IMG/VR virus record: IMGVR_UViG_3300021138_000167
Location: 1-24,299 of that record
Strand: one strand, 5' to 3'
Length of the DNA stretch: 24,299 nucleotides
DNA from: a virus
Below the pieces are notes generated by a model. That model saw only the letters and a list, made by a program, of their open reading frames with translations, was not told the origin of the DNA and searched no databases. How positions within the stretch are numbered: position 1 is the stretch's first letter; every line of letters begins with the position of its first letter. Position numbers and translations under genes: made by a program. Positions 26-4,630 of the stretch are shown here, piece by piece.

Positions 26-322
26 TCACACACACATGTGGTCGCTTGGAAGCTCGAACGATTTAAACCATTCGACAGTTTCCCTGTGGCAATGTTCATT
101 GCCGGTATCGTAGATTTCCCACACAAGTTCTGCGACCTTGGCGGTTATATCTGACCAAGTGCCGACTTCATCCAACCATAGAATGGCTTTGATTGTGTTT
201 GGATTATCAATTTGCATGGAGTAAATCCAATCGACCAATGCCTCGACCGACCGAAATGGTTGTTCATCCATCCATGGCTTGCGGTCTTGACCTTTGAACA
301 TGATGATACCGAATGATTCCAT
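26..322 (-). CDS. hypothetical protein, 98 aa
   Basis: I do not recognise this protein. It is acidic and tryptophan-rich, apparently soluble, with no membrane segment. The start is supported by GGAGGA seven bases upstream; that ribosome binding site lies inside the last codons of the upstream 41-aa gene, so the two are probably translated as a unit. It is the last gene of the leftward operon visible before the window edge. Residues PFRSVEAL contain the GGTCGGTC motif that recurs across this operon, read in the same frame (CGG TCG GTC) as in the 92-aa and 74-aa genes. A competing 172-aa reverse frame overlaps it but has no ribosome binding site. Confidence 0.75.
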   Translation of the reverse strand: MESFGIIMFKGQDRKPWMDEQPFRSVEALVDWIYSMQIDNPNTIKAILWLDEVGTWSDITAKVAELVWEIYDTGNEHCHRETVEWFKSFELPSDHMCV

Positions 323-326
323 AGCT

Positions 327-452
327 TTATCCTCCGATTGCGATGATGCCAGCCAAGATAGCTGCTACTGCGATTGTGATAGCCGCCGCCCATAGGGCGA
401 TGGCTGTTATTTCGATTAGGGCGACCAATGCCCATGAGACCAATCGTGACAT
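327..452 (-). CDS. small hydrophobic membrane peptide, 41 aa
   Basis: Reading the minus strand from the ATG at 452 gives a 41-residue peptide that begins MSRLVSWALVALIEITAIAL and continues almost entirely with Ala, Ile, Val, Leu and Gly. It is expected to sit in the membrane as one long helix or a tight hairpin; Glu14 is the only acidic residue. GGAGAGA lies five bases before the start, and its final GGAGGA codons double as the ribosome binding site of the 98-aa gene. Its position after the GACC arrays and the half-operator at 487-495 suggests it could have its own promoter. Small phage membrane peptides include holin-like and superinfection-exclusion proteins, but nothing here selects a role. 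Confidence 0.65.
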   Translation of the reverse strand: MSRLVSWALVALIEITAIALWAAAITIAVAAILAGIIAIGG

Positions 453-469
453 GCTCTCTCCATTGCTTT

Positions 470-540
470 GACCGACCGACCGACCGATATGACAGTTTGG
501 CACACGACCGACTTATAGTCAAGTGACCGACCGACCGACA
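470..540. repeat. GACC tetranucleotide arrays in an intergenic region
   Basis: Four tandem GACC units (470-485), a short GACCGAC (506-512) and three tandem GACC units followed by GACA (525-540) lie between the 92-aa and 41-aa leftward genes. The same GACCGACC 8-mer also occurs inside neighbouring genes at 245, 633, 971, 1037/1041 and 1103. Between the arrays, 487-495 reads ATATGACAG, identical to nine bases of the palindromic operators at 2286 and 3323. Iterons, a protein-binding array or simple-repeat drift are all possible. Confidence 0.7.
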
Positions 541-543
541 GAT

Positions 544-577
544 AATGCGCCGCGACTGATTATCCGATCGGCGCATT
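544..577. other. inverted repeat (9-bp arms) after the 92-aa gene
   Basis: AATGCGCCG (544-552) and CGGCGCATT (569-577) are perfect inverted repeats around a 16-base loop. On the minus strand the hairpin falls about 26 bases after the stop of the 92-aa gene. No U-run follows, so it is not a canonical intrinsic terminator; it may instead stabilise or process the operon transcript, or be part of the adjacent repeat region. Confidence 0.45.
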
Positions 578-602
578 TGCACATTTCGCCGGAGGTTGTC
601 GG

Positions 603-881
603 TCAATATTCGCATGGGAGCAACAACGTGGTGACCGACCGATCTGCCTCGGTGATGATCCACAGCTTCCCTGCGCCGATCAGCTTATAGACCGACATCA
701 CGCGCCGGTTGCCTAATCGGATCGCCTCGATATTTAGGTGGGCGTCGTCTTGGCATATATCGCCGAAGTCTCCACAAGCATGGCGACCGACTAGCATAGA
801 CGCAAGGTCTATGTCTTTTTCGAGCAGCGACCACGCGCCGGGCGTGGCGACAACTTGACCGATGGGAAAACATGGTGTCAT
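603..881 (-). CDS. conserved plasmid/phage protein, 92 aa (ADRSxTTLLLP family)
   Basis: The protein resembles a conserved small family carried on plasmids, integrative elements and phages. It shows the family's N-terminal MTPCFPIGQVVATPGA, an internal aspartate-rich stretch (GDFGDICQDD) and the C-terminal signature KLWIITEADRSVTTLLLP. The biochemical role is, to my knowledge, unknown. The ATG shares four bases (ATGA) with the stop of the upstream 74-aa gene and has GAGG five bases upstream, indicating translational coupling. Where I would expect DRSATTLLLP, this copy has DRSVTTLLLP; that valine codon completes a GGTCGGTC motif, consistent with pressure on the DNA motif. The family assignment is from memory. 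Confidence 0.85.
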   Translation of the reverse strand: MTPCFPIGQVVATPGAWSLLEKDIDLASMLVGRHACGDFGDICQDDAHLNIEAIRLGNRRVMSVYKLIGAGKLWIITEADRSVTTLLLPCEY

Positions 882-1102
882 TTGCGCCTCACAAGTTTAC
901 GTGACCGAAGCATCATTTCTGTTGTGTAAGCATCCATCTCGGCTAATAGCTTAGCCACATAAGGATCAGTGACCGACCGCTCGCGGTATAGTGGCAAGGT
1001 GCGCTGTATATCCTCTACAGCGTGGCGCATATCGGCGACCGACCGACCACGTGCGCGTTGCGTGTAGTACTCAAGAGAGTAGGGGATGGGGTCAATTTTC
1101 AT
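878..1102 (-). CDS. hypothetical protein, 74 aa
   Basis: I do not recognise the family. The frame is open further upstream, but the start at 1102 (MKIDPIPYSLEYYTQ...) is favoured because it forms an ATGA overlap with the preceding 59-aa gene and has GAGGG six bases upstream. The protein looks like a small soluble helical protein (MRHAVEDIQRTLPLY, VAKLLAEMDAYTTEMML) with a basic tail, RSRKLVRRK. It contains two in-frame copies of the GGTCGGTC-encoded tripeptide Arg-Ser-Val, at RGRSVADM and RERSVTDP. It is coupled by ATGA overlaps on both sides. Confidence 0.75.
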   Translation of the reverse strand: MKIDPIPYSLEYYTQRARGRSVADMRHAVEDIQRTLPLYRERSVTDPYVAKLLAEMDAYTTEMMLRSRKLVRRK

Positions 1103-1278
1103 GACCGACCCTCTGCGACCGATACCGTGCCCGTGCGACCAGCTAACAGGCGCGCCACTGTCAGCGCGGCCTTGCGTGTTTGGTAGTGACCGATCACGCA
1201 TCGCCGATCCGCAACTATTGCTTCAATTGACCATCTAACAGCGGATTTATACGCTTGTTTTGTTATTGTATAGGTCAT
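1099..1278 (-). CDS. hypothetical protein, 59 aa
   Basis: Translation from the ATG at 1278 gives MTYTITKQAYKSAVRW..., preferred over longer versions because GAGGGGG lies five bases upstream. The protein is small and basic, with a central VIGHYQTRKAALTVARLLAG helix. I do not recognise it. Its stop overlaps the start of the 74-aa gene by ATGA. The C-terminal codons carry another GGTCGGTC copy, ending EGRS. Confidence 0.65.
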   Translation of the reverse strand: MTYTITKQAYKSAVRWSIEAIVADRRCVIGHYQTRKAALTVARLLAGRTGTVSVAEGRS

Positions 1279-1440: not shown

Positions 1441-2178
1441 TCAATTAAAGTGACTGGCGCCCGCGCCGTGCGCCACAATGGCGATAGATTTAGCCTTGAC
1501 GGTATTTCCCCCGCAAAGCTTGCAATCGGCGCAAGTGGTCCGCTTGCCAGCCTCTTTTGATGCAGGGCATAATGTCTCTTTTGTCTTGTCAATTTCCGAT
1601 AGACTTTTGACCACGCGAAACGTGCGAAAAGCTTTTTTCCAAGCTTGTGCCGCTTGCTGGATTGTTTCCACAGAAACCATATAAAGCGCGGGATCAAAAG
1701 CTGAGCTTTTGTTGCGTGACTGATGGCTATAGCCTGTATGCGCTTTGGCCTTGGAAAGCAAAGCTAGCCAAACGTAGGCAGGAACTGCCGCGCCGTCACC
1801 GTAGGTCCCGATCCGCACAAGCGCGCTTTCACCTATTCCGGCGATATCTTGCGCCATAGGATAGAGCCCCTTCTGGTAGGCTTGCCAAACGATTAACGGA
1901 CCTTGGCCTAATAGGACATAACAAGCGCGATCTTTTGCTTGCTTTGCTTTGGGATCGTCTGTTGCTTGCCCACGCATAGGACACGTGCCGCAAATTGATT
2001 TGTCTAGGCCAAGCTTACTAGCCAAGCGCGGATCTGTATCAGAACGCAGAATATAGGTCTGTAGCATTTTGCCTGTCTTTTTGTTTCGATTGCTTTCCAC
2101 TGCAATCGCCACAATAGGCGCGCCATCAATTAGGCTTGGACCTTGATATATGATCGCGCTTTTTGATTGCTTAGCCAT
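1441..2178 (-). CDS. conserved phage protein with Cys-rich (zinc-like) motifs, 245 aa
   Basis: This resembles a widespread conserved phage hypothetical family (I recall it as DUF7227, from memory). Signature stretches are YQGPSLIDGAPIVAIA near the start, CGTCPMRG (Cys63, Cys66), CYVLLGQGPLIVWQAYQKGLYP, VRIGTYGDGAAVP, TGYSHQ, and a C-terminal CPASKEAG (Cys204) with CADCKLCGG (Cys216, 219, 222) followed by IAIVAHGAG. The paired cysteines suggest metal binding or an iron-sulfur site; no activity is established that I know of. It is the first gene of the leftward operon, transcribed from a TTGACA promoter embedded in a palindrome at 2286-2301. Length matches my recollection of the family. Confidence 0.85.
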   Translation of the reverse strand: MAKQSKSAIIYQGPSLIDGAPIVAIAVESNRNKKTGKMLQTYILRSDTDPRLASKLGLDKSICGTCPMRGQATDDPKAKQAKDRACYVLLGQGPLIVWQAYQKGLYPMAQDIAGIGESALVRIGTYGDGAAVPAYVWLALLSKAKAHTGYSHQSRNKSSAFDPALYMVSVETIQQAAQAWKKAFRTFRVVKSLSEIDKTKETLCPASKEAGKRTTCADCKLCGGNTVKAKSIAIVAHGAGASHFN

Positions 2179-3432: not shown

Positions 3433-4113
3433 ATGGCGGGAAGCCCGAAAAAGCGCGCGCGCAATGAGGCCCTAGGGCTTGGTAAGCTTTCTGATTTCAA
3501 GATAACGCCACCAGGAATTGAGCCCCCCACAAGAGAAGCTTGGAACGGCGCAGCAAAGGAAATAGGCGACAAGCGCGAAATAGCCTTGCTAAATGAGGCA
3601 AAGGCTAACATCGGGCGCCCTAGCGTCTTTTCTAAAGAGAAAGCAGAAAGCCTAATAGAGCTTGTAGCAGGGGGCTTGCCATTGTCGCGAGCTTGTAAGC
3701 TGGTGGGGATCAATCGAAAAACAATCAATAATTGGATTTATGGGGAAACGGGAAATGGGGATTTCTTAGCTTTTAGAGAAAACCTTGCCCGTGCGCGTGA
3801 GGATGGTGGGGAATCTTTAGCGGGAGAAGCTCTAAGAGTTGCGCGTGAAACCTACGAGAAAGCGGAAGTCACAAGCGCGCAAGTGCAAAGCGCGACTCTC
3901 TATACTAACGTGTTGAAATGGTACGCTGGCACGCTCAACACTTCGTTTAATCCCAATGCTATCAAGCACTTAGAGATAACTGGGGCTAATGGCGCGCCAC
4001 TAAACGCGCCTGTTGTAATAGATGCGCGATCGTTGCCTGATGATCAAAGAGAGGCAGTAAGGCAAGCCTTGCTTGCCATGCGGGGCGACAGCGCGAAAAC
4101 CATTGACGGCTAA
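3433..4113 (+). CDS. terminase small subunit-like HTH protein, 226 aa
   Basis: After a basic N-terminus (SPKKRARNEALG), residues about 60-103 form a helix-turn-helix of the type in small terminase subunits: IGRPSVFSKEKAESLIELVA, then GGLPLSRACKLVGINRKTINNWI. Residues about 110-165 look helical (EDGGESLAGEALRVARETYE), and the C-terminus resembles a DNA-packaging tail. In the TerS role it would bind the packaging site and load DNA to the large subunit. The large subunit gene is 2.6 kb downstream, with a tRNA and six small genes between, which is unusual. A transcription regulator with the same HTH is the alternative. The start has AAGG nine bases upstream. Confidence 0.7.
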   Translation: MAGSPKKRARNEALGLGKLSDFKITPPGIEPPTREAWNGAAKEIGDKREIALLNEAKANIGRPSVFSKEKAESLIELVAGGLPLSRACKLVGINRKTINNWIYGETGNGDFLAFRENLARAREDGGESLAGEALRVARETYEKAEVTSAQVQSATLYTNVLKWYAGTLNTSFNPNAIKHLEITGANGAPLNAPVVIDARSLPDDQREAVRQALLAMRGDSAKTIDG

Positions 4114-4131: not shown

Positions 4132-4185
4132 ATGGTTGGAGGGTCCCGCCAGACCGACCACCGACACCCCGCCTATTGGATATGA
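4132..4185 (+). CDS. possible 17-aa peptide (uncertain)
   Basis: ATG at 4132 follows a strong GGAGGGG site and encodes MVGGSRQTDHRHPAYWI, then stops at TGA. It begins 18 bases after the HTH gene. It could be a leader peptide or the remnant of a longer gene; chance is a serious alternative. It contains the only GACCGACC copy (4152) I noticed outside the first 1.2 kb. Confidence 0.2.
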   Translation: MVGGSRQTDHRHPAYWI

Positions 4186-4189
4186 GTCC

Positions 4190-4203
4190 CAGGCTTAAGC
4201 CTG
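4190..4203. other. 14-bp perfect palindrome
   Basis: CAGGCTTAAGCCTG is fully self-complementary with no loop, so it is more likely a dimeric protein-binding site than an RNA hairpin. It lies in the gap between the HTH gene and the 100-aa gene. A similar CTTAAG-centred palindrome occurs at 4838-4849. Confidence 0.4.
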
Positions 4204-4248
4204 AACCCCTCACCTCAACATACGGCCCACAAAAACTAAACTATACGC

Positions 4249-4328
4249 TTGACTATTCTCAAAATAGGATCAATATAGGCGCAGTCTCAATATAGGATCA
4301 CTAACAGCTATAGGGGTATATAGGGGTA
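4249..4328 (+). repeat. ATAGG-rich direct repeats upstream of the 100-aa gene
   Basis: ATAGGATCA occurs at 4264 and 4292, CAATATAGG at 4271 and 4288, and TATAGGGGTA is tandemly duplicated at 4309-4328, ending at the ATG of the next gene. TTGACT at 4249-4254 could be a -35 with TATAGG at 4274 as -10 (19-base spacer, weak). The repeats may be regulator-binding direct repeats. The rest of the gap 4114-4327 holds only the palindrome at 4190 and the possible peptide at 4132. Confidence 0.4.
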
Positions 4329-4630
4329 TGGTTATAGAAGTACGGGATATATTGCCTAAGAAGGCTATGGGTAATGGGGCCCCCGGAAAAGTACCTGGAA
4401 AAGTTTTTGGTTCTATGGGTCTTTCTAATGGGTCCCCTGTAGGGGTAGGGGGCAATACCCAGGCTGCTACGGCTGGCCAGCCATTGGGTGGGTATATAGG
4501 GCGACCTAGGTTGGAGGAGGTGCCGTATACCTTTGAGGCAACTAAGCCTTGGGAAACTGGTAAAGTTAAGATGTCTAGGGCAACTTGGTATCGGCGTCGG
4601 CGTGAGGCATTGGCCAATAAGAAGCCTTAA
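4328..4630 (+). CDS. small basic protein with C-terminal SRATWYRR motif, 100 aa
   Basis: The first two thirds are rich in Gly, Pro and Val (GNGAPGKVPGKVFGSMGLSN) and look unstructured. The end, KPWETGKVKMSRATWYRRRREA, resembles the recognition helix of small helix-turn-helix proteins (PWE...SRxTWYRR) found in replication-linked or hypothetical proteins of alphaproteobacterial plasmids and phages. Nucleic-acid binding is likely but not proved. The start abuts a tandem TATAGGGGTA repeat, with no clear ribosome binding site apart from GGGG. The next feature is the tRNA gene. Confidence 0.55.
   Translation: MVIEVRDILPKKAMGNGAPGKVPGKVFGSMGLSNGSPVGVGGNTQAATAGQPLGGYIGRPRLEEVPYTFEATKPWETGKVKMSRATWYRRRREALANKKP

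Follow-up and report, generated by a model that had tools for sequence, protein, structure and literature searches.

Phage-specific, one-orientation clusters of 4–6-nt words in the early and replication region of uncultured tailed phages

Introduction

The pri-rep-ori modules of SaPI/PICI elements carry element-specific iterons beside their primase and initiator genes (PMC6092414), while the stoperators of cluster A mycobacteriophages are oriented sites that vary with the repressor (PMC6550527). The clusters of short words that we describe here in a group of uncultured tailed phages resemble both: as in PICI iteron origins (PMC6092414), there are element-specific short direct repeats, which in several of the phages adjoin a primase gene, and, as with stoperators, the sites within one genome are oriented and group-specific and vary with the phage (PMC6550527). 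They also differ from both. PICI origins have two compact sets of iterons flanking an AT-rich region, whereas here dozens of 4–6-nt copies in one orientation extend into coding sequence, and phages whose primase and helicase are almost identical have different words; unlike stoperators, the sites are words of 4–6 nt, lie in tandem and in genes, are confined to a few kb and are accompanied by no recognised repressor. To our knowledge, neither PICI origins nor stoperators spread 4–6-nt words through neighbouring coding genes or swap words between phages with near-identical replication proteins.

The pac site of P1 contains several short hexamer repeats within a coding region near the packaging genes; here, in contrast, the specificity domain of TerS does not track the word. 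Partition-site arrays such as the omega heptads and parC iterons are likewise tandem, short, oriented and element-specific, and are located over promoters; the present sites differ in that they invade coding sequence, and an unsystematic look at the genes revealed no partition gene. Finally, like the sites of T7-type primases, the words are short and strand-specific and in some phages contain GTC, but they vary among phages that have the same Zn ribbon. We claim membership in none of the known systems, and our search of the open-access literature found no description of such word clusters, which is weak evidence of absence.

Results

GACC is concentrated on one strand of a short region

The window, as we refer to the whole stretch of DNA that was analysed, is an entire virus record of 24,299 bases; it is a fragment, without the helicase and primase genes found in its relative G001 (see below), and contains one instance of a phage-specific cluster of asymmetric 4–6-nt sites in one orientation. 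An initial annotation had listed the positions of an 8-mer, GACCGACC, in this DNA. All 12 positions are correct and all are on the plus strand, whereas dinucleotide shuffles contain 0.32 copies on average and never more than 2. The underlying unit is shorter, GACC(GA), the 8-mer being a by-product. Positions 1–1300 contain 34 GACC on the plus and 6 on the minus strand (approximately 2.8 and 4.0, respectively, are expected from the rest of the window), and 22 GACCGA on the plus strand and 1 on the minus (approximately 0.1–0.2 expected).

The 150-nt intergenic region 453–602 contains two perfect tandem arrays, and the remaining copies are dispersed through small leftward genes (Table 1). Isolated copies, defined as GACC with no second GACC within 10 nt, make up 15 of the 34, as compared to 2.6 expected. 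In GACC phages a pyrimidine usually stands before the word and GA after it. The arrays flank a short spacer on both sides in the window as well as in G001, and an array is found close to the 3' end of the 92-aa gene in the window, L120, L140, L015–L017 and L020. We detected no clear 10–11-nt period in the spacings that would indicate helical phasing (the commonest are 4, 7 and 12), and the single-strand structure of the arrays is not unusual (z −1.2). The locus has multiple direct repeats of an element-specific word, as iteron-type origins do, and tandem copies of a short unit in variable number, as microsatellites do; unlike a microsatellite, it also has an excess of isolated and in-gene units at fixed protein sequence.

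Table 1. Features of the GACC cluster and its surroundings, in coordinates of the window
Feature	Position	Strand	Remarks
Entire strand-biased GACC/GACCGA cluster	134..1232	+	33 of the window's plus-strand GACC
Tandem array (GACC)4.5, intergenic	470..487	+	G001 orthologue at 31471-31493 differs in length
Tandem array (GACC)3.8, intergenic	525..539	+	orthologous array in G001, 31533-31571
Lone GACCGA between both arrays	506..511	+	conserved in G001
GACCGACC within 98-aa gene, antisense to gene (PFRSVEAL)	245..252	+	also in G001
GACCGACC within 92-aa gene (ADRSVTT)	633..640	+	
GACCGACC within 74-aa gene	971..978	+	RERSVTDPY in window, RERDTRDPY in homologues
(GACC)3 within 74-aa gene	1037..1048	+	(GACC)2 in L178, same place, another frame
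GACCGACC where the end of the 59-aa gene overlaps the start of the 74-aa gene	1103..1110	+	
Inverted repeat AATGCGCC...GGCGCATT adjoining the arrays	544..577 (arms 544-551, 570-577)	.	kept in G001
98-aa gene, without known family	26..322	-	
Gene for probable 41-aa membrane protein, read from internal ATG	327..452	-	
92-aa gene (ITEADRSVTT family)	603..881	-	
74-aa gene	878..1102	-	homologues in L178 and G001
59-aa gene	1099..1278	-	homologue in L178
Twelfth GACCGACC, outside the cluster, after TerS gene	4152..4159	+	

The enrichment acts on DNA rather than on protein

In five genes TCGGTC, which is GACCGA on the coding strand, occurs 14 times, while 0.51 occurrences are expected at fixed protein sequence with codons drawn from the phage's other genes. 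When the genes' own codons are shuffled the expectation rises to 2.5. The observed 14 is reached in 0 of 2000 draws. The occurrences are spread over frames 0, 1 and 2 (6, 3 and 5, respectively), none are on the opposite strand, and GGTC starts are present in all frames. Because this excess at fixed protein spans all three reading frames, the enrichment acts on the DNA and not on the peptide Arg-Ser-Val. The recurrence of Arg-Ser-Val in one reading frame, which had been the starting observation, is real in four cases, but these are a subset of the 14 in all frames, so that the 'same reading frame' is a selection effect, and we reject it as a protein motif. We also reject a signal at the level of mRNA: the word stays on one strand while genes run in either direction, so that it is sense to some and antisense to others, which makes a role in RNA unlikely.

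It had further been suggested that Val is unique to this copy of the 92-aa protein, Ala being found elsewhere. This does not hold as stated: ITEADRSVTT is near-invariant in the family and Val is the usual residue, albeit in a partly biased sample, many of the homologues having been fetched by the ITEADRSV pattern; Ala and Ser occupy the position in the terminase-clade members L120 and L140, respectively. The presence of RSV residues in homologues without the DNA repeat, which would speak against selection for the DNA motif, applies to the 92-aa gene, whereas the region taken as a whole does not show it. The 74-aa protein has yielded to the DNA word, with RERSVTDPY in the window as compared to RERDTRDPY in both homologues. 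Near its residue 20, GGTCGGTC is common to the window and L178 in different frames (GRSV and LPVGQ, respectively), with CGTGGTCGGTCGGTC of the window read as RGRSV and CCGGTCGGTCAG of L178 read as PVGQ; the DNA word is therefore at the same place in another frame. What stands of the initial reading is a strand-specific enrichment of a DNA motif to which at least one protein has yielded; the single reading frame and the unique Val do not.

Relatives that share the word

Searching with the 98-aa protein, we found G001, a virus record of 58,415 bases, in which this protein is 97% and the terminase and portal are 98% identical to those of the window. G001 has 12 GACCGACC, all on one strand, and shares with the window the motif, its orientation and the intergenic arrays, which are orthologous and of different length. 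The majority of its plus-strand GACCGA (22 of 24) lie within 28.6–31.6 kb, a region encoding an SF2 helicase (phrog_16) and a Zn-ribbon/Toprim primase (phrog_510, PF08273, PF13362). Each of these genes contains 4 GACCGA, as compared to approximately 0.4 expected at fixed protein, and the excess extends in the genes of G001 up to 3 kb from the array. The GC skew of G001 has no extremum specific to the array. The cluster is located beside replication genes (primase) in G001, L286, L315, L318, L319, L321 and L323; near the array of L120 and L140 there are genes for an AAA ATPase and a DUF7192 protein, and not for a primase or helicase.

Scanning viral contigs for (GACC)4 returned at least 120 stretches, the matches listed including L120, L140, L141 and L178 of the terminase clade. 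While this set was selected by the motif, G001, L323 and L020 were found by protein and so carry the word independently. The GcrA homologue encoded by G001 (PF07750, an alphaproteobacterial cell-cycle regulator; L067 591-1070, minus strand) hints at an alphaproteobacterial host; a genome scan for the host returned MAG contigs and distant relatives only.

Relatives with other words, and exchange of the word between close relatives

Loci fetched by the primase, the terminase or the 92-aa protein have the same kind of one-stranded cluster, but with other words. The word is GGTCC in L286, L318, L319 and L321, CAACCA in L315, L316, L320, L015 and L017, TGGCA in L349, CCACCG in L324, AGTAAG in L317 and GGAGGTA in L215. 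In each phage its own word is numerous, the other words occur at close to background levels, and its own word is almost absent as the reverse complement. With the protein sequence fixed, the primase genes of L286, L315 and L318 contain more copies of the word than expected, and those of L319 and L324 show no enrichment. A few words, namely GACC, GGTCC and CAACC, recur in diverged phages. Such a cluster is absent from most primase relatives below 42% identity and from several above this value, and hence characterises part of the primase family. We found none near the primase or terminase of the cultured relatives Pseudomonas YA3 and PS-1, Serratia OS31 and Roseobacter CRP-902, nor of the uncultured relative MW202675; a GGTGTT run of YA3 is located at the far edge of the fetched stretch.

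Among close relatives, the orthologous region is occupied by different words. The helicases of L321 and L349 are 88–91% and their primases 84–94% identical to those of L323. We compared the region in and beside the gene for a small IADLCG protein, where L323, L321 and L349 have, respectively, 23, 3 and 1 GACC, 1, 12 and 0 GGTCC, and 2, 0 and 19 TGGCA, with each word on one strand. At a single site the words of all three coincide with their spacing kept, as GACCGACC (GACC), GGTCCGGCG (GGTCC) and TGGCATTGA (TGGCA). Furthermore, the Gly-His codons of the conserved peptide EIGHM are GGT CAC in L323, which makes GGTC, and GGA CAT in L321, which makes GGAC, the third relative having GGG CAC. By circular shift, the coincidence of sites is moderate between L321 and L323 (8 of 12, p 0.05) and absent for L349, and our statement about switching therefore concerns the region and not every site.

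None of the genes tested co-varies with the word

As candidate determinants of the word we tested the primase, the helicase, TerS, the IADLCG protein and p245/GP88; none co-varies with it. The primases of L323 and L349 are 94% identical with near-identical Zn ribbons, yet the words are GACC and TGGCA, and the helicase is rejected by the same argument, although in principle a few residue changes could alter the specificity of either protein. TerS is rejected because the window and G001 share the word, yet have different HTH domains joined to an identical C terminus; the recognition helices of TerS do not group by word. The C-terminal domain of the IADLCG protein is common to all three words, and, while p245 is found near GACC arrays in several phages, G001 has GACC with GP88 in its place. 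Neighbouring small proteins do not track the word, and Pfam recognised no repressor among the tested genes near the array, in what are incomplete fragments. The reader may be encoded outside the fragments, be a host factor, or be absent.

The 245-aa protein (window 1441-2178; phrog_2554, weak DUF7227) is also located near GACC arrays in L164, L156 and L118, and G001 and L321 have a GP88-family gene at the equivalent place. Small proteins starting with LPxxIADLCGI are encoded beside the arrays of L321, L323, L349, L120, L015–L017, L020, L315, L316, L320 and L350, spanning most word classes; in L323 the linker is expanded by the array (GRSVGR repeats).

Further features of these phages

A second strand-biased cluster is found at 4141-4490 of the window, immediately behind the TerS gene and ahead of the tRNA/terminase, with 11 GGGT on the plus and 3 on the minus strand. 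It has equivalents at 35060-35510 of G001 and 5150-5600 of L141 (GGGTCCC in L141), and is a candidate packaging or control region. The TerS genes of the window (3433-4113) and G001 (L067 14422-15039) differ by a domain swap, with an identical C-terminal part and a different N-terminal HTH, next to terminase large subunits that are 98% identical. L323 has upstream of its replication genes a 900-nt G-rich stretch (1650-2550) with 17 GGCAGG on one strand, approximately 40–60 nt apart. L326 and L328, of the same primase family, contain the palindrome AAGCTT 35–37 times, clustered beyond the primase.

Discussion

The clusters, their strand bias, the DNA-level enrichment in all frames of coding genes and the different words of close relatives are observed. 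We infer, with a probability of roughly 0.45, that the words are recognition sites, iteron-like and direction-sensitive, for a specificity system that switches fast and is located at the early-control/replication region. A putative trans-acting factor would read the sites like iterons, as part of a DNA-binding system for replication, partition or regulation. It would bind mainly at the dense intergenic arrays, and selection for additional sites of like orientation would have produced the isolated copies in the flanking genes. The specificity of the reader would switch often, with the sites following, perhaps as a result of a benefit to co-infecting phages that do not read one another's sites. 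Against this reading stand the lack of co-variation of any tested gene with the word, the merely partial conservation of single sites between switching relatives, the GC skew without an extremum specific to the array, the spacings without clear helical phasing, and those primase relatives and primase genes that show no cluster or enrichment. More speculatively, and probably going too far, the words could constitute a new kind of address code, interchangeable, strand-specific and 4–6 letters long, which selection would have written over coding and non-coding DNA around the replication/early region, the whole set of which is replaced between near-identical phages and read by a putative phage or host factor; such a code could serve, for example, in discriminating the phage's own DNA from that of foreign phages.

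The strongest rival is neutral spread of a repeat by slippage and short-patch copying, in which a 4–5-nt unit expands where an intergenic region is under weak constraint and is then copied into nearby genes by local template switching; there would be no reader, and the words would be accidental. Tandem runs that vary in length between the window and G001, the fast turnover of words and the thinning out of copies with distance from the array all agree with it. While this makes it the alternative to be taken most seriously, we think it rather improbable: it fits badly with 15 isolated GACC where 2.6 are expected, with an excess at fixed protein that spans all frames and in G001 reaches genes up to 3 kb away, with synonymous codons that yield GGTC in L323 and GGAC in L321 at one conserved Gly-His, and with the recurrence of the same few words in distant phages. 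Slippage alone accounts poorly for isolated synonymous copies.

Two further explanations invoke a reader of a different kind, and we hold both to be unlikely. One is that the words are stoperator-like operators, spread in one orientation across the early region and bound by an immunity repressor with which they co-evolve. This would rationalise the orientation bias and group-specific sequence, which cluster A mycobacteriophages also display, as well as arrays in a promoter-like region of early genes. However, the sites are 4–6 nt long and mostly tandem or within genes, they have no fixed orientation relative to transcription, since the genes under the constant motif strand run both ways, and no repressor gene was recognised near the array. 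The word could also be set by the host, as a Chi-like site or as the asymmetric target of a type III/BREX-like system that acts on one orientation, accumulated in that orientation. Type III enzymes spare sites that are all in the same orientation, and short asymmetric words in one orientation, with fast turnover among near-identical phages and recurrence in unrelated ones, agree with this; the clusters are, however, limited to a few kb rather than genome-wide.

Pac sites bound by TerS in the manner of the P1 hexamers would explain why the motif strand is the terminase strand in the window, G001, L120, L140 and L178, with TerS 3–5 kb away, but are highly improbable given that one word goes with different TerS DNA-binding domains in the window and G001 and that recognition helices are not grouped by word. 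Equally improbable are recognition sites for lagging-strand priming, i.e. single-strand 4–5-nt words such as GGTC, which resembles the T7 primase site: strand bias and the adjoining Zn-ribbon primase gene are as expected, but the almost identical primases of L323 and L349 go with different words.

If the words are read, these phages, whose replication genes are otherwise almost identical, would offer a natural series of matched sets of sites, and the reading factor could be found by comparing them. They would also show how fast a recognition system can change, rewriting codons of neighbouring genes in the process, both synonymously and non-synonymously. If the words are not read, the clusters are an unusual strand-specific repeat that has spread into coding genes. 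Peptides that derive from the words, such as Arg-Ser-Val and Gly-Pro, should not be taken as protein motifs.
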